A DNA stretch of 30,604 nucleotides, from IMG/VR virus record IMGVR_UViG_3300017730_000051, positions 1 through 30,604 of that record; one strand, given 5' to 3'. Below, piece after piece: positions 396 through 27,195 of this stretch. The stretch comes from a virus. The notes under the pieces were generated by a model that had not been told where the DNA came from, did not search any database, and worked only from the letters and a program-made list of their open reading frames with translations. The number at the start of each line of letters is the position of its first letter. The stretch's first letter is position 1. Made by a program: the position numbers and the translations under genes.

Positions 396-3211
396 TAAAG
401 TTGTGGGATTAAGGGGGTTACTATTTCTACAAAGGTAGTTTTTATTGTATTTGAATTTTTATAATTAAAAGTATGACTCCAGCTTGGGCAGTAGTAAACT
501 TTATTTTTGTTTAATGCGTTTATGTTATGGCGATAAACAAAATGTTTATGTCCTAAATGAGATTCTAAAAAATGTAATAATGAATAAGCTTCTTTATCTG
601 TTCTATTACTAAAAGTTAATTCAATTCGTTCTATTCTATTTTGATTGTGGGCTACATTTAATTGTTTATGAAAAGATCCCTTAAATTTGTTTATTCTAGA
701 GCTATGATCAAATATGACGGGTACCGATCTGTCTGGCTCCCAAAAGAAAGTTCTTGTTGCTCCTATACCGCCAGTAAATCCCGCTTCTCCTTGCAATTCT
801 GGGCCAATGCTTTTTGTATCTCCACTAACGTAGTAATAATTATGTAAATCATGAGTTTTGTTCTGAGAATTTGTATTACCAATAATTCCATTATAACCAA
901 CTAACACTTCTTCATCCGCGGATGTATCATTAATAAATATAGCAACTGGACAAGTCGATTCAAACTTCCATAACTGAGAGTCATTAAACGGAAGGAAAGG
1001 CTCATTTCCAGCAACCGATGGCCTTCCAGCTTGAGAAGAAGAGCTATAAAATACCGCTCCTCCATTTTCCATTCTTGAATATACTAGATGGGCTTTTACT
1101 CCTTGCGGAAAATTTGTTCTAGTGAGTTCGGCCGCAGTTAAACCAACTCCTCCTGTTAAAGAATGTGTGTGCATACTTCTCCATGAGTCACCAGTATAGT
1201 AAGACACTGTGATACTGCCAGAATATGGCGTTACTATTGCGTAATCTTGAAGTTTATTTCCATAAGAAGCATAATTATATAAATTATGTATACCAAGACT
1301 TTGTGTTCCGTCCCCACCAGCACCATCGCCTATTTCTGTGGATGACACACCAGAGGCATGATAAACACTAAAATCGGATTCAAATGTAGCAAGGCTATTT
1401 ATTATCGCAGCATCTTGTCCATTATTTCTTCTCCTGTAAGTATATGTGTTCGTTAAATAAGGAAAAGCAGTCGGAGTTTGAAGATTATTCGCTTCTTTAT
1501 TGTATATAGTAACTGGCGTTAATAACATTTTGTCGGTATCATCAGTGGTCGAAGAAGTGCCTTCTGAAGTTATAGACATTAAAAAATTTTTCGGGAAACC
1601 ATCCGTAGCGGTTGTTCCAGTAAAAAAATGTGAGTCATTTTCAGTAAAAGGTAATTGTCCAGTTTGTCCTGCTCCTAAAGTAATTGACTGCACGGCAGTA
1701 CTATTTACCCCATCTGCTCCAATCATTCTACTTATTGTTTGAGTTTCAGAGTCTAAATTTAAAATGTAAGCCCTATGTGGAGTTGTTCTTGATGTTGTAG
1801 CCTTAAAAGATGCGCCCGCAAAACTAAATGGGGCCATAATGTGGTTTCTGTCTGACTTTGTAAAATTAGCGTATTTGGTCGCCCTATAAAATTTACCAGC
1901 AGTTACATCTATTGTAGTGTTTTGGGGCTTTGAACTCGCGGACACAATCTTGGTTCCTTGCGCTGACCCAGTAACTTGTGTCCAAGTTTCTTCATAAATC
2001 TCTGTATTGGGAAACGGTAAAGCTACTTTTACACTAGTAGCGCCACTAAAACAAACCCATTTAAAATCGCTGTCTCCAGTTTTTTGTATTACATCAAATT
2101 TTTTATAATTACCATTCCCCATTTGTAGATTAACTCCATGGCTATTAAGGTCACTTTGTAAAAAGCTATAACCGTTTGTTCTTAATAGTTCAATCGGCGT
2201 ATTAATATTATAAAGCGACAGGACTGGCCTTATAAAACCTTCACCATTATTTAATACAGAAGAAACTGTATTGTTAAATAAAGAAACATCAATTTTATAA
2301 GTATCTTTTCCTATATCAGTTACTGTAAAATCAGATACTTGAGACCCAGAAAAATTATTATATATTTCACTACCATCTAAATTTATTATAGTTGCGTTTC
2401 TTTTTCGAATTGTAATAGAATCAATTAATACCGATGTGTCAGTGGCGCCTGCGTCCGACATTCCTATCTCTAAAACGCTATTTGAATCATTAATTGTTCC
2501 AGTAAAAACAAAATTAGTATTATTACCCTGCACTGCATTAAAATATTTATCAGTAATAATATCTCGAGGCGAAACGCCATCTCCGTTTGTTAATGTTCTT
2601 GTTCTAAGTTTTGGAGTTGTCGATGTGCCATCCGTTTGATAGCTTCCAGAAACTATATATTCTCCAGATTCTTTAAACCCACTAAACTCTATTGCAAAAT
2701 ATGAAAATGTATCGTTCAATTTTAAAAATTTATTTTCTGCAGAGCCCAATGTAACTATTGAATCATTGCCTCCAGCAACTTCTCTAACGGTAAATTGATG
2801 ATTGTTTATAGTTCCATTATCTACAGAAAAACCTGCTGATTCAATATTTTCAAAATCATTAAAATAAAGAAGGGGATTATTTTCTTGTCCAAAATTAACA
2901 TAGTTCACATTGCCAGTAAAAGCCTGCTCTCCAGTCATTTGACCAGTTGTTACAGACTGCAAATATTGTAATAATGTTTTTGTTCTATCTAAACCTTCTA
3001 TAAACGAAAGTTGAGTGGTTAACATTAAATTATTTAAACCAACAGGTGAAACAAACTGAGAATAATTAGAGCCTTTCCATGTAGAATTTTCTGCGCTAAA
3101 ATTTATTTGCGCACCATACTGTGGGTTAAATGTAGCGCTAGAAACCACAGATCCATCCGATCCAGTAATATTATTTCTATTATAATTAAAATCTTCTATA
3201 AAACTACTCAT
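395..3211 (-). CDS. Large tail-tip / minor tail protein with lambda gpM-like ends and a carbohydrate-binding-like insert
   Basis: 938 residues, directly downstream of the tape measure, a usual place for distal tail and tip proteins. The start codon lies at the tape measure stop. The C-terminal part (about residues 855-938: LTFSNRTDKEAYSLLHFLES, later VYYCPSWSHTFNY and a final TTFVEI) has the pattern of minor tail protein M of lambda (Phage_min_tail-type): a helix that selects a residue range, a conserved F, then Y-x-C-x-x-W and a closing beta strand. An N-terminal segment at about 55-87 (PVGLNNLMLTTQLSFIEGLD, then a leucine-rich helix) looks like a second, partial copy. Between them are some 750 residues of beta-rich sequence. 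At about 115-270 there is a jelly-roll-like pattern with closing strands like those of carbohydrate-binding modules (family 4/9 type). I infer a tail-tip protein whose insert may touch the host surface. The domain assignment is by eye. Confidence 0.6.
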   Translation of the reverse strand: MSSFIEDFNYNRNNITGSDGSVVSSATFNPQYGAQINFSAENSTWKGSNYSQFVSPVGLNNLMLTTQLSFIEGLDRTKTLLQYLQSVTTGQMTGEQAFTGNVNYVNFGQENNPLLYFNDFENIESAGFSVDNGTINNHQFTVREVAGGNDSIVTLGSAENKFLKLNDTFSYFAIEFSGFKESGEYIVSGSYQTDGTSTTPKLRTRTLTNGDGVSPRDIITDKYFNAVQGNNTNFVFTGTINDSNSVLEIGMSDAGATDTSVLIDSITIRKRNATIINLDGSEIYNNFSGSQVSDFTVTDIGKDTYKIDVSLFNNTVSSVLNNGEGFIRPVLSLYNINTPIELLRTNGYSFLQSDLNSHGVNLQMGNGNYKKFDVIQKTGDSDFKWVCFSGATSVKVALPFPNTEIYEETWTQVTGSAQGTKIVSASSKPQNTTIDVTAGKFYRATKYANFTKSDRNHIMAPFSFAGASFKATTSRTTPHRAYILNLDSETQTISRMIGADGVNSTAVQSITLGAGQTGQLPFTENDSHFFTGTTATDGFPKNFLMSITSEGTSSTTDDTDKMLLTPVTIYNKEANNLQTPTAFPYLTNTYTYRRRNNGQDAAIINSLATFESDFSVYHASGVSSTEIGDGAGGDGTQSLGIHNLYNYASYGNKLQDYAIVTPYSGSITVSYYTGDSWRSMHTHSLTGGVGLTAAELTRTNFPQGVKAHLVYSRMENGGAVFYSSSSQAGRPSVAGNEPFLPFNDSQLWKFESTCPVAIFINDTSADEEVLVGYNGIIGNTNSQNKTHDLHNYYYVSGDTKSIGPELQGEAGFTGGIGATRTFFWEPDRSVPVIFDHSSRINKFKGSFHKQLNVAHNQNRIERIELTFSNRTDKEAYSLLHFLESHLGHKHFVYRHNINALNKNKVYYCPSWSHTFNYKNSNTIKTTFVEIVTPLIPQL

Positions 3212-6200
3212 TATTTGTTCCTTGTAAAGAGTGATCCAGAGACACGTTTTTCTTCGTTAATTACGTTTAATACAACGTCTTTAATCTTCTTAGAAAACTC
3301 TCTTGCTTGTTGCGGATCTTCTTCTCCAGAACCAGATGCTGAAGATGAAGCTCCTCCTTCTTTATCTATGTTTATTTCAATATTTAAAGTTCCTACATCT
3401 GCAGATCCACCAGATGATGCTGCTGACGAGCCTCCAACGCTGCCACCATTTGCATAATTTAAATTGTTCATGCTATTTAAAGTATCTGAACCTAAACTGC
3501 TTGCAGCCTCTGCGCCCATAACATATTCTCCATCCATAAGCAAGGCGTTTGAGTCTCCCGCCGCCAATAACCCACCATTAGAATATCTAGTAGGTTGTCT
3601 AAATACACCTGGAGTATTAAATATAAAACTTTGTGAGTTGGCGGCAGCTGCCCTTGATGAATCTAGAAGATCTGCACCCATTTGCGTTGGCGCGAGAACA
3701 GTCTTATTATATTCGAATCCTAAAAAACTTCTAGTTTGTGGAATCTCTTGAGTCGCTCCTGGAATAGTACGTATACTTGTGCCTGCCTCGACAACATTTC
3801 CATCATACATGCCAGCGGATGGGAGTTTTAAACCTTCTGTTGGGGCGGACCCAAAGAAACTGCCCCCCGCCGCTTGATTCTGCAATCCAGCAGTAACCCC
3901 AGCAACAGTTGCATTTACAAACGCCCCAACAACAGCTTGCTTAAATGCCCTAGACCTTGCTTTTTTAGCGTCACGGTTTTCTTGTATTACTCTATTTTCT
4001 TCGGCCACTGATTGGTTATACAAATCTAACGCTTGCGCTTGGGCTTCTTTTAAAGCTCTTTTAGCTGGGCTATCCCTTCTTCTGCCAAAAGCTGTTAGTC
4101 TTGTACTTTGATCTTCTAAATTTATAGACGCTCCTCCCGCTCTTTGAGATATTTGATCTGTAGCCCCACTAGTGTATCCTTGTTGAGAAAAAGCGAACAA
4201 GTTTTCTTTTCCTACAATTTCTCCAGCTCCTCTTTGCCCAGGAACAAAGAAGTTTCTTGTCTTAGCTTCCTCTAAAAATGCTCTAGATCTTGCTCCGCCA
4301 GCCCTATACCCAGAAGTATCTGACCAAAATTTTTCAGTTCTTACATTATCTGCGCCTTGAACATAGCCTCCAGATTGCATTCCATTTACAGACTGGTTAT
4401 TTAAGCGATCTAAAAAGTCTGCTCCATATTTTTGAACAGCGGATTTTCTTATAACAAATTCTCCTCCAGTTAATTTAGCTGGTATATCATCCGTTACGCC
4501 ATTTCCGCCAGTAACCAATCCTCCAGAATTTAAAGCTATTACTCTTTCTGGAGATCCCGTACCAGAACCGCCAGAACCAAAGGTGTTTCCAAATGCACTT
4601 CCTATGCCCTTAAATAATCCTTCACCAAGCCCTCCAGAACCTGTAAAACTTTCTACTAAACTCTTTGCAACCGCATCATTAATTTCTTTTTGTAAACTTT
4701 TTCCAAATTCTAGAGCTATGTTCAAAAATACATCTCCAATAGAATCATAAGTGCCAGCCGCCAGATTGTCCATTGCATTACCTATGGAGCTTTCTAAATT
4801 ATCAGCTAATCTTTTGGGAACATCTTCCGAAAGCTCTTTTAGTTGGTCTCTTCTGCCTTGATTAGCCGCTTCCAACGGAGTCAGTGCGGCCATTTCTTTT
4901 TGCTTATTTAAGATTTGTAACGTTTGCGCATCTGCAACCTTTAATTCATTATTCTGATCTTTATAAGAGTCGGTCGTCGCTATTACAGCTGCGAGTGATT
5001 TTGTGTCCTGCAACCCTTTGTCTGTTGCTAGTACATTAACTGCATCTAAAATTTCTTCAAATGATGCGCCAGCTGCTAATTGTTCCTCTAAAGCGGTTAA
5101 TTTATCTTTCTCAACAACTTTTCCCTCTATTTCTTTAATTACATTTGCCGCTAATTGACTACCTAATTCCCTAGATGTCTTAGCTTTTGTTAATTCAAAA
5201 TCAACAAGTTGTTTTTGTATTGCTAACCTTTCTCTTTCTAATTTTCCTAGACTTCCAGCTAGTTTTACTGCCATTTGTTGAGATTCAATAAGCTTGTTCC
5301 CACCTGCAGCTTGATTAAAATCTGGAACCCCAGATGAATTAAGTACTCCAGCAATTCTAGTAGCTTTACCCATTCTTTGATTTGCTTTTAATCTTTTCGA
5401 AGCGTCAGATAAAATTAAGTTTTTGTCTGCTTCTGTTTTTTGTTTTGTTGCGTCTGCTTGGCCCTGTACACTGTTTTTATATGCTTCTGTTGCCTTTGAC
5501 GCTTCTATAAGTTTTTCAATAAAAATATCTATATCAAAAGTTTTAGAGTTTCTTGTTCCTGTTATTGTTGATTCGTCAATTAAGTCTTGAACTTTATCCT
5601 GTCCAACTGTTGCAATTGCGCTAGAAAAAGTTTCTAAATCTCTAACGCCTCCGAACATGCCTCTATTAAATTTTTTCCTTCTACCACCTCTTTGAGCCAT
5701 CGTTAAACCTTTAACCTGTTGCTCTAGAACTTCTTCTTGGGTAGCTCCCTTCGTTAAACCAAGATCAGTTTTGGTTTTATTTAAATCTTTAACCCTTTGA
5801 GCTTCAGCTTCTAATGCTTTAACAAATCCACTAACGGCTTCGCCTTCACCCTTCGATAATTTGCTTAAATCAAGCTGGCCTAAAGATTCATTAAGCTTTT
5901 CAAATCCACTTTTAGTTTTCGACAAGGCCATTACTAACGGTATAGCTATAGACGCAATCATTGCTATTGGACCAAGCATACCTAAAGCTCTACCGCCCAG
6001 CGCCGCTGCTCCACCACCAAGTGCTCTGCCCCTATTTGCCATACTTTTACCCGCCGAAGTTTTTGCGAATTGTCCGCTTGCGGTCCTAAATCTTTTTGCA
6101 CTTTTATCGAAAGTTAAAGTTGTCAACTTTAGGGCTTTAGATGTTTCAGTTAACCTACTAGAAAAACCTTTTATTGACGGAGATATTAAACTAAATGTTG

Positions 6201-9120
6201 CAAAAGAAGTTATTGCAGTTGTTAAAGTGGTTATTAATTTTCCAGTAGTGCTTTCTAGATCTACAAAAGCTGAAGCTGCTCCCGCAATAGCTTGAGCCGC
6301 AAATATGCCACCCAAACCAGCAGCATTAAAGTTTGGAATTGCTCCAGTTGGTTCGTCTCTTGTATTTGTTACCGCAATACCTTTTGGGTTTTGAGCATTA
6401 CGAAGTTTACCACTTTGATTAACTCTAATTTGATTCATTGGAACTCCAGCTTGATTTTCTCTTGCTATTGCCTCTTCTAATGCTCCTCCAAAAAAGTTTG
6501 GTATATATCCTACGGCTCCCCTAGCTTTAATTGCTTGGGATGCAAATTTTGATTTTTGAGCTGTGCTAGATTTGTAATCTCCGTCTCTATAAAAGCCTGT
6601 CGGTAAACCAAATATTTCATTTAATGCTGCTGTATTTTTACCATTAAATTTAATATCAAGATTTCCAGCGGTGTCACCTCTAGCTCCACCAATAACCATA
6701 TCAATAATAGCTTCGAACATCGATCCCTTAAATGCGCCAAACGCTCCTTGTCCGCCTTCTTTTAAGAATTTACTTTTAGCAGATTTTGGAGATATTGGAG
6801 GTGTTGGACTTGTTTTTATACTTGGATAAACTTTTCCAATAATTGTATTTATAGACTCCGCCATAGCTGCTTCAAGCTCTTTATCTAAACCAACAAGGCT
6901 TGCAAATTTAGAATCTCTTTTTAGATTCTTATCTATTCCATAAGCTGATCCAGAAAAACCAGTGTAACCTTTCCTGGGTTTTTTAAATTGCATAGACAAC
7001 TCTTCTCTTAAACCTTTTTGCGGAACGAGCATTACAACGCCAACTTTATCTGCGTCAAATATCCCTGCGGCTTTTTTAGATTTTGACGCAGCCCTTTGCT
7101 GGCCTCTTAAATTTGCCGAATAGCCAGCAGCTGTGGCTTGCTCTTGTGTTATGTTTCCTCTCCTTAAATTAGCGGCTACCCCAGCGGCAGTCATACTTTT
7201 TCCGCCTATATTAAATTTATTAAAATTAGGAATATATCCTCCAGCCGCATTTAATTTTTTCGCTCCGCCAGGCAAACCCATTGTTTTAACCATATCTTTA
7301 TTAAATATAGCATCTCCGCCGCCCTTATAATTTGGCACAAAGTATTCACTAGTATTTGCGACCATCGTACCACGCTGGCCACCACCAAACGCGAAGTTTG
7401 GAATTGATACAACCTTAGAGCTTGCTGGTGCACCACCAACTCCACGAGATACGTCACGAGACTCTGCAGATATATAACCTCCAGCACCTCTTCTTGTGAC
7501 GCCGCCTTCTCCGCCCCTTAAGCCTCCTCTAAAAAGTCCAGGAGTAACAGTCGCGGCGGCTTTTGAAACTCTCGCTAAAGCGGCCGCTTGTTGAGTATAT
7601 ATTTTTAAAAGTAGTTGTTCTTGAGCAACTTTGTTACCTTCCAGTGCTATAATTTCTCTCTGTATAGCCTCGTTTTGTAATAAGGTTTGTAAAATAGATT
7701 GCTGTAAGGCTGTTTGTTGTTGGGCGGCTTTGTTTATTCCTAAAATTTGTTTTAATGAAGTTACGCCAAACTTAGCTAAGTCTATAAAAAGTTTTATAAA
7801 TATAGCTCCAACTAAAGCTATACCAGGTGTCAATGTGCCACCTATGCCTTTTACTAACCCCTTTGCAAACTTAGAACCAATTGATTCTCCTTGTAAAATA
7901 TCTGTAATAGAATTAACTATGTCTCCAAACATTTTAAGTAAGTCTTTTGCTGTATCTGTAAATCCTATTTCACCTAATACAGCAGCTAGTTTTTCTCCGC
8001 CTACTGTTAAATTATTAATTAAAGCCTCAAGAGTATCATTTAGTTTTGTATTTTTAGCATCTAGTGCTCCAGCGGCTCCAGCTGAAACTTCTAAAGATTT
8101 AGCAAACTGGCTCTGTCCACTATTTAAATCCTCAACCAAACTAATTAAAATATCACGCTGTCTAACGCCAGCTACTTTTTGAATAACCTCTCCAGCCTCA
8201 ACACTCTTTAATCCTAATTTATCTAATTCTGTTGCCAGTTCTTGAAAAAGTGGGACAGCACTTCTAATGTTTCCAGAAGTATCTAAGACACTTATCCCCA
8301 AATCTTGAAGAGCTTGCAAAGTATCTGTTCTGCCCAATCTGGCAAAAATAGTTTTAAAAGCATTACCAATAACAGCACCGCCACGCTGCGTTCTTTCTTG
8401 AACTGTTGTTATAACACCTAGTAATTCATCAAAAGAAACCCCAGCAACACGAGCTGATGCAGATGCTCGTTCCAAACCATTAATTAAATCTTCTGTAGAG
8501 ACAGCGAACTTTGTATCAACTTCTGCCAACTTGTCAGCTATTCCAGCAACAGTTAGTCCTGCTCCTTCAAATCCTTTAATCGCTGCGGTCAAACCAGCAA
8601 CAGCTTCTTTAGAATCTATACCAGCGACACGAACTAATTTAAGTGCGGTTTCTACTCGAGATAATGATTCAGCGACCCCTAAGCCTTGACGAGCTAGCTC
8701 CAAAGCTCCATCAGCAACTTGATCAAAAGACGTAGCTGTTTTTTGGGCTACTTTAAAAATTCCATCTCCAAATGCCTGTATTTCAGATTTAGTTCCGCCC
8801 AAAATAACATTAATTTTAGCAAATGCTGCTTCTACTTTAACCGTATTAGTCACCAAAGCCGCAAAAGCTTCAGATAGTTTATTGATAACAGCAACAGAGG
8901 CACCAAAAGCTAAAACACGAGCATTAGAAGCTTCTAGTGATTTTTGAAATTCAGAGGCTTGACCAGTTATTTTACCTAAAGGTCTAGATAATTTATTTAT
9001 TGATTCGGCACCTTTACCAAAATTAACACCCTTAGCTTGAGATTGTATTCTCGCTAAAGCCGCTTCTACTTTCCTAGTGTCTACAGGGTTAAATGATACT
9101 GGTACATTTGCCTTTGCCAT
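3211..9120 (-). CDS. Tail tape measure protein with embedded nuclease-like domain
   Basis: 1969 residues, the longest gene here. It sets tail length and is threaded inside the tube. Residues about 60-400 match the TP901-type tape measure core: alternating helices rich in A, G and L, including FDQVADGALELARQG and RGGAVIGNAFKTIFARLG. Hydrophobic segments lie near 425-448 and 1047-1066, followed by long charged helices to about 1500. Two C-terminal glycine-rich boxes, near 1530-1575 (DDIPAKLTGGEFVIRKSAV) and 1845-1890 (ALLMDGEYVM), are typical of tape measure C-termini. I/V-P-N-F/Y motifs occur at 573, 595, 630, 873 and 928. Between the third and fourth, residues about 685-865 resemble a PD-(D/E)XK nuclease fold (E803, D822, D848-Y-K850). 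The start follows GTGTAA by 9 nt, with no Shine-Dalgarno sequence. Confidence 0.93.
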   Translation of the reverse strand: MAKANVPVSFNPVDTRKVEAALARIQSQAKGVNFGKGAESINKLSRPLGKITGQASEFQKSLEASNARVLAFGASVAVINKLSEAFAALVTNTVKVEAAFAKINVILGGTKSEIQAFGDGIFKVAQKTATSFDQVADGALELARQGLGVAESLSRVETALKLVRVAGIDSKEAVAGLTAAIKGFEGAGLTVAGIADKLAEVDTKFAVSTEDLINGLERASASARVAGVSFDELLGVITTVQERTQRGGAVIGNAFKTIFARLGRTDTLQALQDLGISVLDTSGNIRSAVPLFQELATELDKLGLKSVEAGEVIQKVAGVRQRDILISLVEDLNSGQSQFAKSLEVSAGAAGALDAKNTKLNDTLEALINNLTVGGEKLAAVLGEIGFTDTAKDLLKMFGDIVNSITDILQGESIGSKFAKGLVKGIGGTLTPGIALVGAIFIKLFIDLAKFGVTSLKQILGINKAAQQQTALQQSILQTLLQNEAIQREIIALEGNKVAQEQLLLKIYTQQAAALARVSKAAATVTPGLFRGGLRGGEGGVTRRGAGGYISAESRDVSRGVGGAPASSKVVSIPNFAFGGGQRGTMVANTSEYFVPNYKGGGDAIFNKDMVKTMGLPGGAKKLNAAGGYIPNFNKFNIGGKSMTAAGVAANLRRGNITQEQATAAGYSANLRGQQRAASKSKKAAGIFDADKVGVVMLVPQKGLREELSMQFKKPRKGYTGFSGSAYGIDKNLKRDSKFASLVGLDKELEAAMAESINTIIGKVYPSIKTSPTPPISPKSAKSKFLKEGGQGAFGAFKGSMFEAIIDMVIGGARGDTAGNLDIKFNGKNTAALNEIFGLPTGFYRDGDYKSSTAQKSKFASQAIKARGAVGYIPNFFGGALEEAIARENQAGVPMNQIRVNQSGKLRNAQNPKGIAVTNTRDEPTGAIPNFNAAGLGGIFAAQAIAGAASAFVDLESTTGKLITTLTTAITSFATFSLISPSIKGFSSRLTETSKALKLTTLTFDKSAKRFRTASGQFAKTSAGKSMANRGRALGGGAAALGGRALGMLGPIAMIASIAIPLVMALSKTKSGFEKLNESLGQLDLSKLSKGEGEAVSGFVKALEAEAQRVKDLNKTKTDLGLTKGATQEEVLEQQVKGLTMAQRGGRRKKFNRGMFGGVRDLETFSSAIATVGQDKVQDLIDESTITGTRNSKTFDIDIFIEKLIEASKATEAYKNSVQGQADATKQKTEADKNLILSDASKRLKANQRMGKATRIAGVLNSSGVPDFNQAAGGNKLIESQQMAVKLAGSLGKLERERLAIQKQLVDFELTKAKTSRELGSQLAANVIKEIEGKVVEKDKLTALEEQLAAGASFEEILDAVNVLATDKGLQDTKSLAAVIATTDSYKDQNNELKVADAQTLQILNKQKEMAALTPLEAANQGRRDQLKELSEDVPKRLADNLESSIGNAMDNLAAGTYDSIGDVFLNIALEFGKSLQKEINDAVAKSLVESFTGSGGLGEGLFKGIGSAFGNTFGSGGSGTGSPERVIALNSGGLVTGGNGVTDDIPAKLTGGEFVIRKSAVQKYGADFLDRLNNQSVNGMQSGGYVQGADNVRTEKFWSDTSGYRAGGARSRAFLEEAKTRNFFVPGQRGAGEIVGKENLFAFSQQGYTSGATDQISQRAGGASINLEDQSTRLTAFGRRRDSPAKRALKEAQAQALDLYNQSVAEENRVIQENRDAKKARSRAFKQAVVGAFVNATVAGVTAGLQNQAAGGSFFGSAPTEGLKLPSAGMYDGNVVEAGTSIRTIPGATQEIPQTRSFLGFEYNKTVLAPTQMGADLLDSSRAAAANSQSFIFNTPGVFRQPTRYSNGGLLAAGDSNALLMDGEYVMGAEAASSLGSDTLNSMNNLNYANGGSVGGSSAASSGGSADVGTLNIEINIDKEGGASSSASGSGEEDPQQAREFSKKIKDVVLNVINEEKRVSGSLFTRNK

Positions 9121-11182: not shown

Positions 11183-11974
11183 ATGCCCACTTCTCTCATC
11201 TCAGACTCTCAAAAAAACACCATCAGCGCTATTATTGATGATATCCATGAAACTTTCGCTAGAAGCATCACAGTTTATGAAGAAGGAAAAAAAGTATTAA
11301 TTAGTGTTAATCGACAATTAAAGATAAATGGTTTTACTGGCGATAACGCCCATTTAAATGGAACTTATACACAAGTAAGCACTAACTCTTATACCCAAGA
11401 AAATGGATCTGGTGATATAACTCGTGTCGAGGAAGGTGTTGGAACTGAATCAGATCCTAACCTTGTACAATATCGCTGGGAGATAACAGATGGCAGTGAC
11501 AACGATCCTGGCACTGGGGATGCAGCATCAAACTATATATCTAAACAGAGTACTGATCCATCAGTATCACAACCATATGAAATGACCTGGAGCAGCTTGA
11601 CACTTACAGAATTTGTTATAGGAGACACATTTAATGGAGTATATGGTAGGAGCGTTTTTGGCAACAAAACGACCACAACAACCGCTGTTCAACACACTAT
11701 AAAAGCAAGAATCAAATACATAGATGCTAAAGAAGCAAACCTTACCGATGGCAATATAGGCAGTCAATTAGACATAGAGCTAGTAGATGGATCTGTAAGA
11801 ATAACTGTAGATGCGGCAGGATTTAATTTACTCAAAGAAGCAAAAAGATGTGAATTTGAGGGAGGTAAATATGAGATTGTGTCTAAAGGAAATCCAACTG
11901 GTATATTTGGGCCTCAATATTACCACTTCTACCTAAAACCAATAGAAGAACTACAAGACGCCTCAGTATCATAA
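11183..11974 (+). CDS. Neck / head-closure (stopper-like) candidate
   Basis: 263 residues, first gene of the inverted plus-strand cassette. The N-terminus (IDDIHETFARSITVYEEGKK, then LISVNRQLKI) and the C-terminus (GGKYEIVSKGNPTGIFGPQYYHFYLKP) look like two halves of a small beta-barrel of the head-closure/stopper type, with an acidic, threonine-rich beta insert between them (about 50-190). The ending 'property to be measured, then YHFYLKP' is common in small phage neck barrels. The next gene starts at the last base of its stop codon. Order in the cassette (this gene, gp10-like, terminator-slot protein, tail tube) matches siphovirus neck modules. The function is inferred from order and fold impression. 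The start has no Shine-Dalgarno sequence but has GTGTAA 8 nt upstream. Confidence 0.5.
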   Translation: MPTSLISDSQKNTISAIIDDIHETFARSITVYEEGKKVLISVNRQLKINGFTGDNAHLNGTYTQVSTNSYTQENGSGDITRVEEGVGTESDPNLVQYRWEITDGSDNDPGTGDAASNYISKQSTDPSVSQPYEMTWSSLTLTEFVIGDTFNGVYGRSVFGNKTTTTTAVQHTIKARIKYIDAKEANLTDGNIGSQLDIELVDGSVRITVDAAGFNLLKEAKRCEFEGGKYEIVSKGNPTGIFGPQYYHFYLKPIEELQDASVS

Positions 11975-12564
11975 TGCCTTTAGATCCAACAATTACAGCG
12001 AGTTTAATACGCCAATCCCCAAAGATTGCAAGAGTACAAGTACAAAGACAAGGTAAAGCCGCTTTTCAGAAAATGAAAAATAAAATGATAGCTGAATTCT
12101 TGAACCATCCAGTTACAAGAGAAATCAAACAGGGAGTAAGCTCGGAAAATATAAGCGGGACTTTGGGAGGAGCCACTAATTTATTTTCTTTTATTGGCTT
12201 TGAATCGGGGTTTAGAGACCCAACCAAAGCTATTGAAGATATACTGCAGCAAACTCGCTTTGAATTTGCTACTGCCAAACTTAATTCTATTGAATTTTCT
12301 ATTTATATTCCAGATGCAAAAGATGTTTTTGACGTGACTCCAATGCCTTGGGCGCCAGGAAGAAGTTGGGCCAAGGGTATTGAAAGTGGTATTTCTGGTC
12401 TTGGGTATTATTTAAAAGTAGAAAGAGAAAATAGTAGGTCGGGCTTAGGAATACAATCGCCAAGAAGAGTAAGAAAAGGTGGAACAAAATTTAGAAACAC
12501 TCAGTATATATCAGCTCTTTTAAAAAAGTATAAGAAAGAATTCGAGAACTTACAGCTTCCCTAG
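11974..12564 (+). CDS. Neck / tail-completion protein candidate (HK97 gp10-like slot)
   Basis: 196 residues. It has a basic N-terminal helix (AAFQKMKNKMIAEFLNHPVT), then a compact motif EIKQGVSSENISGTLGGATN with LFSFIGF. The C-terminal part is rich in basic residues (SPRRVRKGGTKFRNTQY) and closes with a lysine-rich helix. A segment HPVTREI...NISGTLGG...LFSFIGF is one I associate with conserved structural or neck proteins of large phages, but I cannot name a family with certainty. It overlaps the stop of the previous gene by one base (TAATG) and ends 14 nt before the next. Its place between the stopper candidate and the terminator-slot protein is where HK97 gp10-type proteins usually lie. Confidence 0.5.
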   Translation: MPLDPTITASLIRQSPKIARVQVQRQGKAAFQKMKNKMIAEFLNHPVTREIKQGVSSENISGTLGGATNLFSFIGFESGFRDPTKAIEDILQQTRFEFATAKLNSIEFSIYIPDAKDVFDVTPMPWAPGRSWAKGIESGISGLGYYLKVERENSRSGLGIQSPRRVRKGGTKFRNTQYISALLKKYKKEFENLQLP

Positions 12565-12569
12565 TGTAA
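12564..12569 (+). promoter_or_regulatory. GTGTAA late-promoter-like motif before gene 12579
   Basis: GTGTAA begins on the last base of the upstream TAG stop codon and is 9 nt from the ATG at 12579, with ATAATATTT between. No Shine-Dalgarno sequence is present. The layout is the same as at 27205-27210, and close to that at 9130-9135, on the other strand. Confidence 0.5.
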
Positions 12570-12578
12570 ATAATATTT

Positions 12579-13427
12579 ATGAAACCCCAGTATCAACATG
12601 AGTTAATGACTAGTTTCTTTTTGTGGTTCGATCACGAACTTTTACAAAAGGGAGAAGCTTATTCGAATAAAACTGGAACACTTTACGCCCAATCAGATAG
12701 CAGATTACCAAATAGTTACATCTCACTTCAAAGTAACTATAAACAATGGGTAAATGACTCTTCAATTACTGGAGCAATAAACCCAATAATCCCAACAGAC
12801 TTTGAAGGCAGCGGCAGGGCTAATGATATTGTTTTTGATTTTGAGAATGGCAGACTTATTGAAACTGGAAGCGTTGTCAGCGCAGGAGATACATTAACTG
12901 GCACCTTTGCAGTAAAAGATTTTAATGTGTATCTGACAAACGAAACAGAAGAAGATTTAATCATTGAAAACAAATTCAAATTAAACAGTAGATACGGAAC
13001 CCCTACAATGAGTGGTATAGAGCCTTACGATCAAGTCACGCCAGCAATATTTTTAAATGTAGAATTTAGCAGAAACGAAGGATTTGCATTAGGGGGTATG
13101 GACCAAACAAAATCCACGATCAAAGCTGTTGTACTGGCAGACAGTGATTATCAATTAGATGGAGCTTTATCTATATTTACAGATTCTGCTAGAAAAATTG
13201 TTCCTAAAATACCATTTAGCGGTCACCCATCAACAGAATATGGCGACATAAAGGGAGGCTCGTATAACTATACTGGACTAACCGCATCTTACACAGATGG
13301 TTCATTTTTTATAGACGATGTCACTGTTTCAAAATTTTCACAAAGAGCGCAAACGTCTATACCTGGAGACATTAAAGTTGGCTTTATAGACTTTGAGATA
13401 TCCACAGAAAGATTTCCCCGCTCTTAA
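12579..13427 (+). CDS. Tail terminator-slot structural protein
   Basis: 282 residues with an N-terminal helix (MKPQYQHELMTSFFLWFDHE), then beta-rich sequence. Near 170-205 the pattern NVEFSRNEGFALGGMDQTKS, STIKAVVLADSDYQLDGALS and a following SARKIVPKIP resembles the strand-helix order of small tail terminator proteins, in which a helix with D-x-x-R-x-x-P follows a strand. The family is not recognised with certainty. It lies between the gp10-like gene and the tail tube candidate, the usual tail terminator position, but it is longer than most terminators (about 120-200 residues), so it may carry an extra domain. The start is set by the ATG 9 nt after the GTGTAA motif. Confidence 0.45.
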   Translation: MKPQYQHELMTSFFLWFDHELLQKGEAYSNKTGTLYAQSDSRLPNSYISLQSNYKQWVNDSSITGAINPIIPTDFEGSGRANDIVFDFENGRLIETGSVVSAGDTLTGTFAVKDFNVYLTNETEEDLIIENKFKLNSRYGTPTMSGIEPYDQVTPAIFLNVEFSRNEGFALGGMDQTKSTIKAVVLADSDYQLDGALSIFTDSARKIVPKIPFSGHPSTEYGDIKGGSYNYTGLTASYTDGSFFIDDVTVSKFSQRAQTSIPGDIKVGFIDFEISTERFPRS

Positions 13428-13470
13428 TTTCACAATATAACAAAATAACTGTAAACAAATATAAAATATC
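13426..13470 (+). promoter_or_regulatory. Extended promoter-like element of tail tube gene (AATTTCACAA ... ACTGTAAACAA ... TATAAAAT)
   Basis: The 45 bases before the tube gene ATG align without gaps to the 43 bases before an internal ATG in the protease/scaffold gene (18408-18450). By hand count, 33 of the first 40 positions are identical. Identical blocks include AATTTCACAA at the left end and CTGTAAACAA in the middle, followed by TATAAA. No Shine-Dalgarno sequence is seen. Both products would be needed in many copies per virion or prohead. The element starts just before the stop codon of the upstream gene. Confidence 0.6.
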
Positions 13471-14619
13471 ATGGCTAATAATAGAATCATTTATCAATCA
13501 GACGCTCTCTTTGTGTCTAGTGGTGTTGATGCAGATGCTGCATCCGAACACATACAACTACGAAGAGTTCAATCCGCTAATTACTCTTTGAACGTTTCAC
13601 GTCAAGATGTTAATCAATACGGACAATTAGCAAGAATCGACTCATTGATTCTTGAATCGCCAACCGTTTCTTTCGACACTTCATATTTACTCAGTGATGG
13701 ATTTAATGAAATGGCATTGGGCTTTAAAAATTCCTCAAATTTAAATGCGGGATTTATTTCGGGTCAAATTAAAGCAGATGACGCCGACCGTAATTACTAC
13801 ATTTTAACTACACCAGAAGGTGTTGACGCTAACAGTCCCCGAGGCGCGGCAGCTAGTACAGACTCTGATATTAGTGTCATTGGTATTGGTAATGCTTTCA
13901 TTACTGACTATACTTTAGATGCGTCGGTAGGCGACCTTCCAACAGTCAGTCTTTCGGTCGAAGGAACTAACATGGTCGGTAATGCTAATGTTGTAGCTAC
14001 TAATGGAAGTCCTTATAGTTCAATCGTTGGTGCTGGAATTAACCCAGCAGATGGCACGGCTCGCACCTCACAATCTGAAATTAATCTTCCAGAAGCTGAA
14101 GAAGGAACAGGAGCAGCTATTCCTAACGCACTTCGCCCTGGAGACATTACTGTTAGTTTAACTAACGCTGATGGCAAATCTATTGTTGACCTCGACGACA
14201 CTGGTGCGGCACACGTACAAAGTGTTTCGCTTTCAATTCCTATGAGCAGAACTCCAATCGACAAGCTCGGAAGTAAGTTCTCCTTCGCTCGTGTTGTTGA
14301 TTTCCCAATTACGCCAACGCTTTCTATCTCTGCTATTGTTTCAGAAATCAAAGACAAACAGCTAACCGCTATGGTAGCTAATGATTCAGCTATCTCCAAT
14401 ATTGAAATTACATTTAAAGATGACTCAAGCAATGAAGTCGCTAAATATAAGCTTACGAATGTGAAAATAGATAGCGAATCATTTAGTTCGAGTATTGGCC
14501 CTAACAAGAGTGTTGATCTAGGATTTTCGCTCACTATTGGTGGCCCGAATGATACTACAAATAATGTATTCTTCTCTGGAGCCCATAGTTCTGCTATCTT
14601 TGGTAATGCCGCAGACTAA
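13471..14619 (+). CDS. Major tail tube protein candidate
   Basis: 382 residues, beta-rich, two similar halves. The first half holds YSLNVSRQDVNQYGQLARID and VSFDTSYLLSDGFNEMALGF. Near 144-163 is ITDYTLDASVGDLPTVSLSV, near identical in pattern to NNYSVNATVGELPTASFDLN in the protein at 28123-30021. The second half (about 230-370) opens with PGDITVSL and HVQSVSLSIPMSR and ends SVDLGFSLTIGG. This is the layout of tube proteins with tandem tube-fold domains. As the last gene of the neck cassette, with a strong own promoter-like element and a terminator behind it, it is the best candidate for the abundant tube subunit. The function is inferred from family pattern and position. Confidence 0.65.
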   Translation: MANNRIIYQSDALFVSSGVDADAASEHIQLRRVQSANYSLNVSRQDVNQYGQLARIDSLILESPTVSFDTSYLLSDGFNEMALGFKNSSNLNAGFISGQIKADDADRNYYILTTPEGVDANSPRGAAASTDSDISVIGIGNAFITDYTLDASVGDLPTVSLSVEGTNMVGNANVVATNGSPYSSIVGAGINPADGTARTSQSEINLPEAEEGTGAAIPNALRPGDITVSLTNADGKSIVDLDDTGAAHVQSVSLSIPMSRTPIDKLGSKFSFARVVDFPITPTLSISAIVSEIKDKQLTAMVANDSAISNIEITFKDDSSNEVAKYKLTNVKIDSESFSSSIGPNKSVDLGFSLTIGGPNDTTNNVFFSGAHSSAIFGNAAD

Positions 14620-21733: not shown

Positions 21734-23584
21734 TTAAATAAACATAGGGGTGAATCCGTAGTTTTGTTCTTCTGGCATATCCATCATGTCGTAATATATG
21801 TTCATACCCCAATTGCCCAACACCAAAGCTGAATAAGAGTCCTTTCTTGGTCTGTCTACTCCCTTTTGTCTTTTAAGGTTACTTGGTAAATCAAAACTTT
21901 GCGTACCTCCTGTTGATGTAGAAACTTGTATAAGTGCACATTCAGCTTTTGTTAAGTCTATCATATCTTTTTGATGTTCTATAAATTCTATCATTTTAGC
22001 GCCAACATTTTTTTCATCTTCGTATTTGGAAAATTTAAGATTCTTAATTGGTATTTTTTTAGTTTTTTGCATTGAATAATTGTCGTCCATTGCTGTGGCT
22101 GCAAAGTATAATTTCTTTCTATCAAAAGCTGTTTGTAACATTTCGTTAGCACTTCTAATCCAGTTAGAAACTGGCTTCCTCAATATACATATAGTATTGC
22201 TGCTTTTGTTATAACCCCTTCTAGCATCCCTTAAATCTTTTTCATAATCATGGGGGTTATCTAACTTTGGATCGAAGACCCCTATTTCAAGTTTTTCTTT
22301 CTTGAACATGTCGCTCTCGTTACATGAATTTATAAACTGAACACCTCCATTGTAGTCTCCAACAATCATAATAATATTAAAATGATCTAAAATATATTTA
22401 AAGTAAGTCATGTGCTTTTTTAGATTTGTGCCAGGAAGGGCGTAACTGTGAACAATCACGCCTTTCTTTTTTTCTGGCATTAGCTTTATAACTTGTATGG
22501 CAAAATCGTCAGAAGTCTCCGACTCTGACCAAGAGGGGTCGAATGCCATAATATATTCTGCGTCCTTTTCTCCAGCCACTTCAACAGCGGGAGACTCACC
22601 ATCTTCAATCGTGCATTCTGCCATTTTGCTGATCTTAAAATAACCAGCGCTATCATCTGTGAATTGAGCGTTAAATTCTCGGTCAATCTGTGACTGGCTC
22701 ATCGTCCCTTTTGCTTGAGATATTAAGTTTTCATCATACAAGGCCTTTGGCGCACAATCGTAACTAAATTGCATAATGCATCTTCTACCTTGATTTTTTG
22801 CCCCAGGGTTAAAGATCATATTTTCATAGGCTTGATACATTTTATAGAGATACTCGAACTTATAGGATGCCGAAGACAGTCCAATCATTTTATTTGATGG
22901 CCACTCCGTCCTTTCGTCTTCCGTCATCTTTCCAGCCTCAATCATCGCGTCTTCTGCGTCTTTAATTTTTTGTCTCTCCGTTGGGTTTTCTACAACAGCT
23001 AGGAACGGCATAATAACTTCGTTTAATACTTTTTCTGGCATAAGCAGAAGCTCATCAATAATAATACGCTGAAAACGGAAACCACGAAGCTTTTCTCCGT
23101 CACCAAGCGGTAAGGCGGTGATACGACTCTTTCCGATTTGCATGGACCATTCATCATTAGACTTGCTTACTTTACCAATACACTGTCTAAATAGTTCTGA
23201 TTTTTTATCTAGTGATATATCTTCTATCTTTCTAAAAATCATTTTAGACTGTCTAAATGATTTTGAAATGATTCCAATATGAACACCTTGATTCATCATC
23301 GCATCTAATAAAGCAAAAATGCCAGTAGAAAAGGATTTAGACATACCACGAGACCATATACCCAAGAAGTAATCGTTTTCCATCATTGCTTTTACCGCCA
23401 TGTGTTGAAACGGAAACAGCTCGATGCCAGTGAGCAGCTCTGTGGCGAAGGTTACATTTTCTTTTAAAAATTTATACAACCATAATTTAGCTTTAGTATC
23501 ATCTAAGTATCCTTCAAGCTCCATTATTTGCTCATTTACTGGTTCCCTCTTTAAAGGTTTTTGGTTTCCTATATCCCAACTCAT
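21734..23584 (-). CDS. terL: Terminase large subunit
   Basis: 616 residues. The motor that packages DNA into proheads: an N-terminal ATPase and a C-terminal RNase-H-like nuclease. The ATPase has FPFQHMAVKAMM before a divergent Walker A, GIWSRGMSKS (75-84), and a Walker B, IIIDE (173-177). The nuclease has its first acidic residue in MAFDPSWSES (D348), a second in MIVGDYNGG (D409) and a third in PRKDSYSALVLGNWG (D581), the expected D...D...D set. The length is within the usual range. The ATG overlaps the stop of the preceding nuclease gene by 4 nt (ATGA) and has a strong Shine-Dalgarno sequence, AAGGAG. Packaging type (cos or pac) cannot be told from this sequence alone. Confidence 0.95.
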   Translation of the reverse strand: MSWDIGNQKPLKREPVNEQIMELEGYLDDTKAKLWLYKFLKENVTFATELLTGIELFPFQHMAVKAMMENDYFLGIWSRGMSKSFSTGIFALLDAMMNQGVHIGIISKSFRQSKMIFRKIEDISLDKKSELFRQCIGKVSKSNDEWSMQIGKSRITALPLGDGEKLRGFRFQRIIIDELLLMPEKVLNEVIMPFLAVVENPTERQKIKDAEDAMIEAGKMTEDERTEWPSNKMIGLSSASYKFEYLYKMYQAYENMIFNPGAKNQGRRCIMQFSYDCAPKALYDENLISQAKGTMSQSQIDREFNAQFTDDSAGYFKISKMAECTIEDGESPAVEVAGEKDAEYIMAFDPSWSESETSDDFAIQVIKLMPEKKKGVIVHSYALPGTNLKKHMTYFKYILDHFNIIMIVGDYNGGVQFINSCNESDMFKKEKLEIGVFDPKLDNPHDYEKDLRDARRGYNKSSNTICILRKPVSNWIRSANEMLQTAFDRKKLYFAATAMDDNYSMQKTKKIPIKNLKFSKYEDEKNVGAKMIEFIEHQKDMIDLTKAECALIQVSTSTGGTQSFDLPSNLKRQKGVDRPRKDSYSALVLGNWGMNIYYDMMDMPEEQNYGFTPMFI

Positions 23585-24501
23585 CTTTGCTCCTTATCTA
23601 AAAAATATTGTACATCTACGTTCCATAACTTATCGCCTAGAGAAAGTAGCTTAGGTATTACTTTTTCGCTATGCTCCCTGCTGTCTGTAAAAATAAATTG
23701 ACAGTTTCCAGCAAATTCGTGTTGTACGGAAATTAAATTAGAAAAAACCCACCCTAGTTTTGGTGCTCGTCTTCCTTTTGTAAATACGGCTTCTTTTTCT
23801 ATTGCTGTAAGAGATTTTTCTACGACAATGTACATATAGCTATCTAACTCAACGCATCTTTGCATCTCTCTTCTAAATCTATCTACTTGTCCCCCAAAGG
23901 TTGACAAGAAATCTCCAGCGCTTTTTCTATCTACAAATGTATTGGCAAAATTATCTCCGCCCAAAGTGTAATCCCCAAAATCTAATTTTAAAATTGAAGA
24001 TTTATTAAACTCTAATGGTTGCTGTTCCCTAGTGTCAATCAACACTTCAACATTTGTATCATTGTTAAATTCTTTTGGCATACCTTTATAAAATATAGGT
24101 TTCGATCCCATAGCCTCACAAGCTTGGGTGTACGTACCAAAGTGTTTTTTATATGTGTCTAAGTCTGGCAACTGCCTCTTAAGTAATTCCAAATAAAATG
24201 GAGCGTGTGTATATTTTTTTCTTTCGATTCTTTTTTTACCCAACTCAACTATATAATCTTTAACTTCTTCATCTGGTGCAGACTCGCACCACTTTACGAG
24301 TTGTGATCTATTAATAAAATCATTTGCAAAATATTCGTCCTTTTTCTTAAATGGTAATGGGTTACCATTCAACTTATTAAATCTCGGGTAATGTTTAACA
24401 TAGTAGTCACCGACATACATTTTATGAGCCTTAAGATGGCTGTGTAAGCTTTTTTCTGTTTCGAATTCAGCTCCACACTCTTTGCATTTATAAGACATCA
24501 T
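23581..24501 (-). CDS. C2H2 zinc-finger / ERCC4-type nuclease between terminase genes
   Basis: 306 residues from the ATG chosen at 24501. A TTG three codons earlier is possible but less likely. Residues 3-27 form a C2H2 finger (C6, C9, H22, H26: YKCKECGAEF ... HSHLKAH). Near 117-133, KKHFGTYTQACEAMGSKP resembles a homing-endonuclease-associated repeat. Residues 150-230 form an ERCC4/XPF-type nuclease core: IDTREQQPLEF (D156, R158, E159), FGDYTLGG (G176, D177) and VDRKSAGDF (D191-R192-K193, where families usually have E-R-K). These enzymes cut branched or structured DNA. The gene overlaps both neighbours by a few bases, so it is translated with both terminase genes, and a packaging or end-processing role is attractive. 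A homing or selfish endonuclease that settled here is the alternative. Confidence 0.72.
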   Translation of the reverse strand: MMSYKCKECGAEFETEKSLHSHLKAHKMYVGDYYVKHYPRFNKLNGNPLPFKKKDEYFANDFINRSQLVKWCESAPDEEVKDYIVELGKKRIERKKYTHAPFYLELLKRQLPDLDTYKKHFGTYTQACEAMGSKPIFYKGMPKEFNNDTNVEVLIDTREQQPLEFNKSSILKLDFGDYTLGGDNFANTFVDRKSAGDFLSTFGGQVDRFRREMQRCVELDSYMYIVVEKSLTAIEKEAVFTKGRRAPKLGWVFSNLISVQHEFAGNCQFIFTDSREHSEKVIPKLLSLGDKLWNVDVQYFLDKEQR

Positions 24502-25525
24502 CAATACCAATACCTAGAACGCGAGCCTTCCAAGCGGCCATGCCTTCTAGTTTTTCGGCTTCTTTTTTAATTATTTGTTTTTGCATCTCAGCTATGTGAA
24601 CCATGTTTTTTCTTTCTTCTTCTTCTTGAAAAAGTTGCACAATAGATAAGAATGATGAAGTTTCTTTTTGTCTATTAGCTAATCTAGCTCCCCTATCGCC
24701 TTGAAGTTTTTTTGTTAAGTTTTCTATTCGAGTTTCGCACTGATGATACTCAGAACTTTTAGCTTTTATAATTTCGGCTAAACGAACAGTCATTTCGTCT
24801 TGATCATCAGCACTTTCGAACATGTCGTTAAGTTTTTGCAAATGACCAGTAATCAATTCTAAATTAATTATTTCTTTAGCGACATTCATATAAAGATTTA
24901 ACTCATCTGCAGTAAGGTCTGGCTTATCCCAAGTAAGCCTAATAAATTCCTGCTCAAAAAGCTCCTTATCCCTAAAGTTGCTATAATTATTTACGATAGC
25001 AACAAATCTAGAGTTGCTTAAATTTATTCTTAGTTTATCGCAACAAGTATGATGGGTTCTTGACATTTTTATTTCCTCTAGACCATAGCCAGTTGAATCA
25101 TTAATTTTTTTGATTAGTCTAGATAAAGCATTAGGTGCCACGTAATTTACAGGGGCCTCTTCTTTTGCTTCTTCTCTATCTTGATGTAAAACTTCATTAA
25201 CAGCTCGCCACTCCGCAGATAATCTGGGCATGGTTTTATTAAATATTATATCAGTTATTTCAGATGTATTTAATCCGTCCCTTCTCATTGAATCTACAAG
25301 ATTAAGTTGATCGGGTGTTAACTTTATATCTTTTTGTTTTTCTCTTTTTGTGGTTTTTGCTTTGAGCCCATTCTCTGCTAAAAATTTAGTTACAGCCCTT
25401 CCTTCCTTGGATCTGCCATCTAAAGTTTCATCATCAAATACAATCTTTGTAATATTAATTATGTTTGGGTCTTTTCTAAAACTTTCTAGTATTAACTCTT
25501 TTTGTTCTTCTGTTAAATTTTTCAT
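24488..25525 (-). CDS. Terminase small subunit candidate (DNA-binding)
   Basis: 345 residues. Two helix-turn-helix-like repeats open the protein: about 5-58 (NIINITKIVFDDETLDGRSK with EGRAVTKFLAENG) and about 68-115 (LNTSEITDIIFNKTMPRLSA with EWRAVNEVLH). A central domain holds RTHHTCCDKLRINLSNSRF. Long charged helices with ERKNMVHIAEMQKQ end the protein and could form the oligomerisation part. Small terminase subunits typically join an N-terminal HTH to a helical oligomer domain and are encoded upstream of the large subunit, as here with one nuclease gene between. The length is more than usual for the family. The ATG overlaps the sigma-factor stop (ATGA) and has GAGGAAAATG as a ribosome binding site. 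Confidence 0.6.
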   Translation of the reverse strand: MKNLTEEQKELILESFRKDPNIINITKIVFDDETLDGRSKEGRAVTKFLAENGLKAKTTKREKQKDIKLTPDQLNLVDSMRRDGLNTSEITDIIFNKTMPRLSAEWRAVNEVLHQDREEAKEEAPVNYVAPNALSRLIKKINDSTGYGLEEIKMSRTHHTCCDKLRINLSNSRFVAIVNNYSNFRDKELFEQEFIRLTWDKPDLTADELNLYMNVAKEIINLELITGHLQKLNDMFESADDQDEMTVRLAEIIKAKSSEYHQCETRIENLTKKLQGDRGARLANRQKETSSFLSIVQLFQEEEERKNMVHIAEMQKQIIKKEAEKLEGMAAWKARVLGIGIDDVL

Positions 25526-26502: not shown

Positions 26503-27195
26503 TTAAATTTTATCTTCTAGTTTTGCTACGATAAACTTAAGTATTTCGCTTCTTTTTATATCTGCTGTTCCGAATCTTGTACAATATATTCCCTCCCCTT
26601 TAGATTCTTCATCATTAAAGGCGCTGAATATTGTTGAAAATCCACTGTTTTTTATATCACTTTGCATCATATCCCCACATATGATAATTTTAGAATCTTC
26701 CCCTATTCTAGTCAGTACGGTCATTAATTCATTATAAGTAAAGTTTTGAGCTTCATCTACTATTACTATTGAGTCATTCCAATTTGCGCCTCTTACGAAA
26801 TTTACTGGCATACATTCAAACTGTCTTTTTTCTCTTAAAAATTTTATATCGTGAGCGTGGAGCATCTCATCTAATTTATCGTAAAACGGACCAGCGAATA
26901 CTCCAAACTTTTCATCTATAGACCCAGGCAAAGATCCAAGGCTTCTTTGCGAGCTCTCAGCTATGCTTCTAATGTACAGAATATCTTTTTCAAGGTCAGA
27001 GCTAATAGACAACTGAAGAGCTGAATATACGGCCATATAGGTCTTTGCAGTTCCAGCTGGCCCAGCTAAAAACATAAGTTTTGTTTTAGGGCTTAAAGCA
27101 GTTTTTAAAAAATCTACTTGATTATCAGTAAAATTAAATTTTCTGTCTTTGAACTTAATCTTTTGATTTAATTGTCTGAATTCTAATTTAGACAT
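26503..27195 (-). CDS. phoH: PhoH-like P-loop ATPase
   Basis: 230 residues. Walker A GPAGTAKT at 45-52 and Walker B VIVDEAQN at 144-151, with the family segments FTDNQVDFLKTAL at the start, RSLGSLPGSIDEKFGVFAGP in the middle and IIICGDMMQSDIKNSGF after Walker B. This is the PhoH family, an ATPase/RNA-helicase-like group common in aquatic phages. Its exact task in phages is not settled; it has been linked to phosphate starvation and RNA metabolism. It begins the leftward run of transcription and packaging genes, has GTGTAA 9 nt before the ATG and lacks a Shine-Dalgarno sequence. The gap to the next gene is only 28 nt, so the zinc ribbon and sigma gene may share its transcript. Confidence 0.93.
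   Translation of the reverse strand: MSKLEFRQLNQKIKFKDRKFNFTDNQVDFLKTALSPKTKLMFLAGPAGTAKTYMAVYSALQLSISSDLEKDILYIRSIAESSQRSLGSLPGSIDEKFGVFAGPFYDKLDEMLHAHDIKFLREKRQFECMPVNFVRGANWNDSIVIVDEAQNFTYNELMTVLTRIGEDSKIIICGDMMQSDIKNSGFSTIFSAFNDEESKGEGIYCTRFGTADIKRSEILKFIVAKLEDKI

Follow-up and report, generated by a model that had tools for sequence, protein, structure and literature searches.

The question raised by this locus is why the tape measure gene of an uncultured aquatic phage should contain what looks like a nuclease. We begin by considering the window, i.e., the whole stretch that was analysed, a 30.6 kb linear virus record (IMG/VR record IMGVR_UViG_3300017730_000051, 30,604 nucleotides). Its open reading frame (ORF) at 3211-9120 is a tape measure protein, a long tail gene with a PhageMin_Tail region; it matches PHROG 4211 (3.7e-43), and a minor tail gene adjoins it. 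The N-terminal region is well conserved, with a mean column identity of 63% in an alignment of 31 sequences (A3). Farther along the protein lies a nuclease-like cassette, bordered by short IPNF-type motifs, which we consider to be probably an effector carried into the host by the tail. The carrier and the cassette are located as follows.

3211..9120, minus strand: tape measure protein, cassette carrier, 1969 amino acids (PhageMin_Tail and PHROG tape-measure families)
8212..8754, minus strand: PhageMin_Tail domain, residues 123-303, inside the conserved N-terminal region (Pfam PF10145, 3.3e-27; alignment A3)
6505..7221, minus strand: nuclease-like cassette, residues 634-872 (alignments A1 and A4; models m210194071d16 and m08f73341a9dd; conservation)

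The arrangement E..D..(D/E)xK..(Q/K) is the hallmark of PD-(D/E)XK nucleases. The original prediction had proposed the order D..DxK for this segment, with E803, D822, D848 and K850 set in the peptide GAFKGSMFE...GNLDI...DGDYKSS...AQKSKFASQAIKA, and all of these residues are found exactly where it gave them. Using 117 non-redundant cassettes that share only about 20% identity, the order E/D/(D/E)xK is recovered far beyond chance and its residues are among the most conserved columns. The top columns are G799 (98%), D822, K850, D/E848 and K/Q862 (97% each), followed by E803 (94%, plus 3% D) and F802 (92%). The K/Q position at 862, on the helix after the DxK, is a further conserved position that had not been named before. 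By its sequence, the cassette is thus a putative member of the PD-(D/E)XK superfamily, having the ordered E..D..(D/E)xK and then K/Q on the next helix. The residues, with their counts among the 117 cassettes, are listed here.

6712..6714, minus strand: E803, putative metal ligand, on a helix (E in 110/117, D in 4/117)
6655..6657, minus strand: D822, putative metal ligand beside a short strand (114/117)
6577..6579, minus strand: D848 of the (D/E)xK (D in 76/117, E in 37/117)
6571..6573, minus strand: K850 of the (D/E)xK (113/117)
6535..6537, minus strand: Q862, the K/Q position, on the following helix (K in 96/117, Q in 17/117)

The ratio of nonsynonymous to synonymous substitution (dN/dS) in the slot is 0.15-0.35, compared with 0.03-0.17 in the N-terminal region. 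The cassettes are therefore under purifying selection and not decaying, and they evolve faster than their carrier.

We turn our attention to the borders of the cassette. Five [IV]PN[FY] motifs, at residues 573, 595, 630, 873 and 928, stand precisely where they had been placed by the original prediction, where composition shuffles of the tape measure give an expectation of 0.015 (with a maximum of 1 in 5000 shuffles). A motif scan of the other 24 ORFs of the window finds no [IV]P[NRK][FY].

7393..7404, minus strand: IPNF motif, residues 573-576
7327..7338, minus strand: VPNY motif, residues 595-598
7222..7233, minus strand: IPNF motif, residues 630-633, upstream border of the cassette (16/18 clade members lose DNA homology at 633-635)
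6493..6504, minus strand: IPNF motif, residues 873-876, downstream border of the nuclease cassette (homology is back at about 867-893 in most clade members)
6328..6339, minus strand: IPNF motif, residues 928-931, end of the second conserved block (which ends at 929-935 in 15/16 clade members)

Across the relatives described below, the consensus of the slot motif is [AS]-x-G-[FY]-[IV]-P-N-[FY]-A. There are 668 occurrences of the string G-x-[IV]-P-N-[FY] in 445,000 residues of these tape measures, against 3 in the 594,000 residues from other ORFs. IPNF motifs are about 300-fold commoner in the tape measures than in the neighbouring ORFs, and the 3 outside occurrences all belong to one tape-measure fragment. 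More distant clostridial homologues contain neither IPNF motifs nor the nuclease-like domain. As to its role, the motif may serve for cleavage or as a docking peptide, or be no more than a conserved hinge that has turned into a recombination border.

The next question is whether the motifs bound a unit that is exchanged. Compared with five sisters, the window protein is 82-89% identical up to residue 634; in the slot (residues 635-872) the identity is 24-27% for four of them and 54% for the closest, and it is back up to 71-93% over residues 873-931, falling beyond. At the DNA level, the first block of homology stops exactly at residue 633, where the IPNF motif itself finishes, in 13 of 18 sisters; counting those that stop no more than two residues away, the figure is 16 of 18. 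The second block has its end at residues 929-935 in 15 of 16. Within this one clade the versions of the domain in the slot are many and very different from one another, and all of them retain the catalytic pattern. Beyond this, tape measures can be 97-100% identical in the N-terminus and still differ in which whole modules lie between their IPNF motifs, as in L092, with the array [M2 NUC M1 M12 RDEP], and L093, with [NUC RDEP], two relatives (cited here by their L numbers) whose N-termini are near-identical; the pairs L098/L103, L080/L081 and L164/L170 are further module swaps. The segment had been proposed to be an inserted unit, and it is indeed an exchangeable unit bordered by IPNF codons, but not a rare insertion: of 157 related tape measures, 139 have the domain, and presence or absence varies mainly among the additional slots rather than at the nuclease slot.

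This census, which used segments trimmed to the stretches between motifs, draws on several scans of public viral contigs, some of them incomplete. A scan of IMG/VR with the whole protein gives 65 related tape measures; with the domain alone as the query, tblastn against INPHARED phages and a single-sequence scan of viral contigs both find nothing. Scanning with the RDEP module of one relative, a query without the nuclease, gives 45 more loci, nearly all of which are the same kind of tape measure, and most have the same nuclease-like domain. A third scan uses the alignment of the conserved N-terminal region alone, so that the sample is unbiased by the modules; it returns at least 442 matches, of which 80 are kept, to which 17 loci from genome assemblies are added. 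Among the tape measures without the domain, some are truncated or have a slot missed by the motif split (L053 and L059 are detected otherwise), and several others are deep-branching relatives with other modules. The proteins range from about 1400 to over 3700 amino acids. In two groups of sampled genomes (686 in all), the domain is seen only in contigs with such tape measures. Identity to cultured phages, in the N-terminal region, is only 20-30%. The bins that hold the assembly contigs are mostly those of Flavobacteriaceae/Flavobacteriales, Halobacteriovorax and Verrucomicrobiales, which is weak evidence on hosts because the contigs may be mis-binned phage. As a lead on hosts, L112-L121 have the same tape measures in contigs binned with Flavobacteriaceae, Halobacteriovorax, Verrucomicrobiales and Neomarinimicrobiota.

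What else is carried in the slots? The stretch at residues 873-931 had been taken for a repeated module, and it does recur in these tape measures.

6340..6492, minus strand: RDEP module, residues 877-927 (RDEP-type motif in 111/145 long tape measures)

This module (NPxGLAVTNTRDEP), for which no family match is found, is nearly always the final one in the array, and L019, L034 and L104 have two copies each. The commonest array is the nuclease followed by RDEP (51 of those classified), and this is the array of the window, whose protein has one enzyme-like cassette plus the RDEP module. Judged by sequence, the relatives appear to hold several unrelated effector domains in one polypeptide. A GNAT acetyltransferase module in L074 (4447-5016) scores above the Pfam cut-off (Acetyltransf_1, 7.2e-7); such a module inside the tape measure is seen also in L089, L090, L099 and L112. 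A P-loop module is present in 20 tape measures, with weak Pfam AAA matches only. In L019 (residues 1261-1450) the P-loop module is framed by IPNF motifs, has GPxG[SA]GKS and is zeta-kinase-like by eye, and others are in L032, L072, L081, L082, L088, L099, L101 and L110. Further modules are provisionally read as kinase-like (GDLHGSN..DPGD), HAD-like (DWDGT), HExxH and further ExK nuclease-like ones; these labels are motif readings with no family support. We also observe IPNF-framed modules with LYRG...S(F/R)T...E in L194 (13610-14341) and L203 (15647-16285), which are ADP-ribosyltransferase-like by their motifs and have no Pfam match. In a profile comparison the nuclease cassette and the other modules are unrelated.

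To consider the cassette as a structure, we use AlphaFold models of the window domain (alignment of 50 sequences; predicted local distance difference test score, pLDDT, 82; predicted template modelling score, pTM, 0.70) and of the relative L135 (82 sequences; pLDDT 89.8; pTM 0.80). The original prediction had asked that the model not be all-helical, and both models are of mixed alpha/beta composition: a beta-meander and a helical stretch are followed by the long helix bearing the E, a short strand beside the D, a strand ending in the (D/E)xK, and the helix with the K/Q. Fold searches with the two models against the PDB and with one of them against BFVD give no credible match; weak Ras/GIMAP-like rows, with Z of 4.1 or less, are taken as noise.

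The explanation that we favour as the probable one is that the tape measure carries exchangeable effectors, and that the cassette is an injected PD-(D/E)XK-type nuclease effector delivered at infection. It builds on what is directly observed, namely a conserved sequence signature under purifying selection, slots whose borders fall on the motifs, and the exchange of whole modules. A tape measure occupies the tail tube and leaves it before the DNA does, so that its slots could bring any enzyme to the point of entry. For lambda, labelling at the entry site on the inner membrane picks out the tape measure as the main phage protein (PMC13190303). In the proposed mechanism, slots flagged by the IPNF-type motifs would lie after the conserved N-terminal region and before a hydrophobic segment, and these slots would be filled by exchangeable modules, here the nuclease-like domain (E803, D822, D848, K850, Q862) and then the usual terminal RDEP. 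Transmembrane-like segments lie on both sides of the array.

7762..7824, minus strand: transmembrane-like segment, residues 433-453, upstream of the array (Kyte-Doolittle window score 1.86)
5923..5985, minus strand: transmembrane-like segment, residues 1046-1066, downstream of the array (Kyte-Doolittle window score 2.17)

As a part of the tape measure, the domain would travel in the tail tube, be ejected at or ahead of the DNA, fold in the host, and cut nucleic acid there, the likeliest targets being the host chromosome, plasmids or a competing phage. The sister arrays include modules that depend on acetyl-CoA and presumably on ATP, which suggests the cytoplasm as the place where the modules would act and as the destination of at least part of the array. 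The fast replacement of the domain in near-identical carriers points to conflict with hosts or rival phages, rather than to housekeeping, as what may drive it.

Several results weigh against this explanation. There is no direct evidence of any part of the protein reaching the host cytoplasm, and no gene for immunity or self-protection is identified. The comparison with restriction endonucleases that had been suggested holds for the E..D..(D/E)xK signature and the mixed alpha/beta composition; the PD-(D/E)XK fold is putative, as neither model matches any solved nuclease with Foldseek or VIA. The domain has no sequence-profile match in Pfam, PHROG or PDB. With hhalign, its G..FE, D and K fall in register with Mrr_cat, but the comparisons with Mrr_cat and PDDEXK_1 are not significant, and they are uninformative since the positive control, Mrr_cat against PDDEXK_1, failed too; for VRR_NUC, no reference sequences were obtained from the sampled genomes. 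Finally, GNAT is the sole module family match above the cut-off, and the remaining enzyme labels come from the reading of motifs.

Alternatively, the domain may be a real PD-(D/E)XK-type nuclease or DNA binder that works on the phage's own genome, by holding or trimming its end in the tail or by helping it to enter, and does not attack foreign DNA. Tape measures adjoin the genome end, and a domain present in 139 of 157 related ones fits a core function better than an optional weapon. We find this unlikely, however, because such extreme replacement between sisters with near-identical N-termini would be unusual for core genome handling, and because unrelated enzyme-like modules such as GNAT occupy neighbouring slots. 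It is rather improbable, too, that the domain is not a nuclease at all and is another enzyme or a structural domain, whose conserved E, D and DxK serve another purpose. High-confidence models that match no nuclease structure, and a domain that no family library recognises, are what such a domain would give; yet E, D, (D/E)xK and K/Q keep their order and spacing, are nearly invariant and dominate the conservation at about 20% identity, and the register with Mrr_cat, though not significant, leans the same way.

A selfish homing endonuclease, with or without an intein, has also been considered, because such elements are known to interrupt tape measure genes, including those of ICP1, from which they are spliced out (PMC10448857). 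There the likeness is a nuclease coding sequence within a tape measure gene; the cassette described here is in frame and part of an array. The whole-protein Pfam scan (E up to 1) returns PhageMin_Tail alone, with no intein, LAGLIDADG, HNH or GIY-YIG match, the frame is uninterrupted, an empty slot is very rare, and equivalent slots are taken by enzyme modules of unrelated kinds, and so we reject this possibility as very improbable. That the domains are mere spacers, with apparent enzymes as fossils and only length mattering to the tail ruler, is hardly credible: tape measure length does set tail length and these proteins vary greatly in length, but the catalytic residues are the most conserved positions and the dN/dS values are those of purifying selection.

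How does the injected nuclease effector that we favour compare with the known systems? The polyvalent proteins of phages and conjugative elements (Iyer et al. 2017, PMC5512222) contain many disparate enzyme domains, including GNAT, kinase and peptidase, are predicted to be injected with the DNA, and have their genes among the virion genes. The arrays of the relatives are alike in having disparate enzyme domains within one polypeptide. They differ in that the carrier is a tape measure and the slots are delimited by one short motif; the word "tape" is absent from the main text of that paper, where the carriers are MuF, portal and others. The MuF-domain effector fusions and T4 Alt (reviewed in PMC5512222) are likewise virion proteins that bring an enzyme into the host, as the tape measure presumably does, but they are head proteins and not the tail ruler. 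Closer in the carrier is Tme of the contractile injection system of Streptomyces davawensis, a tape-measure-related effector with a C-terminal EndA-like nuclease (DRGH), whose DNase activity has been demonstrated (PMC11126660), so that a tape-measure-like protein can carry an active nuclease. Tme belongs to a cellular injection system, whereas the nuclease-like domain described here is internal, has E..D..(D/E)xK, and lies in exchangeable phage slots. The Mrr_cat and RecB-like (PDDEXK_1) nucleases share the residue order E, D, (D/E/Q)xK with the cassette, which nevertheless has no significant profile or fold match to them, has a long helical stretch and a beta-meander ahead of the catalytic part, and has no clear strand between the E helix and the D.

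Other features of the window are recorded here as separate observations. A block of four genes on the plus strand (11183-14619), within an otherwise minus-strand structural operon, begins at the gene upstream of the tape measure cluster and has one weak tail-protein match only. The gene adjoining the terminase large subunit (23581-24510, minus strand) has a C2H2 zinc finger at its N-terminus together with an ERCC4-type nuclease domain (PHROG 3490, 2.9e-13; Pfam ERCC4, 5.4e-6), a combination unusual for a packaging module. A PhoH-like gene is found at 26503-27195 on the minus strand (PHROG 170, 1.7e-59), and PADLOC gives single weak matches only.

Tape measures are regarded as rulers and channel formers. 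In the open-access literature we found no account of IPNF-delimited cassettes or of such tape-measure cargo. The chances seem to us evenly balanced that, in a broad lineage of uncultured aquatic phages, the tape measures are general-purpose effector carriers, with two to several motif-delimited slots for interchangeable enzymes (nucleases, acetyltransferase, kinase-like, P-loop, peptidase-like and others). Recombination at the IPNF codons would shuffle these enzymes, and their injection through the tail would be an opening attack on the host, on its defences or on rival phages. If true, each infection by this lineage would open with a protein payload, one that is overlooked by annotation because the gene is labelled just "tape measure". 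The IPNF motif would offer a simple handle for listing many new phage effectors and for studying the passage of folded cargo through a tail tube.

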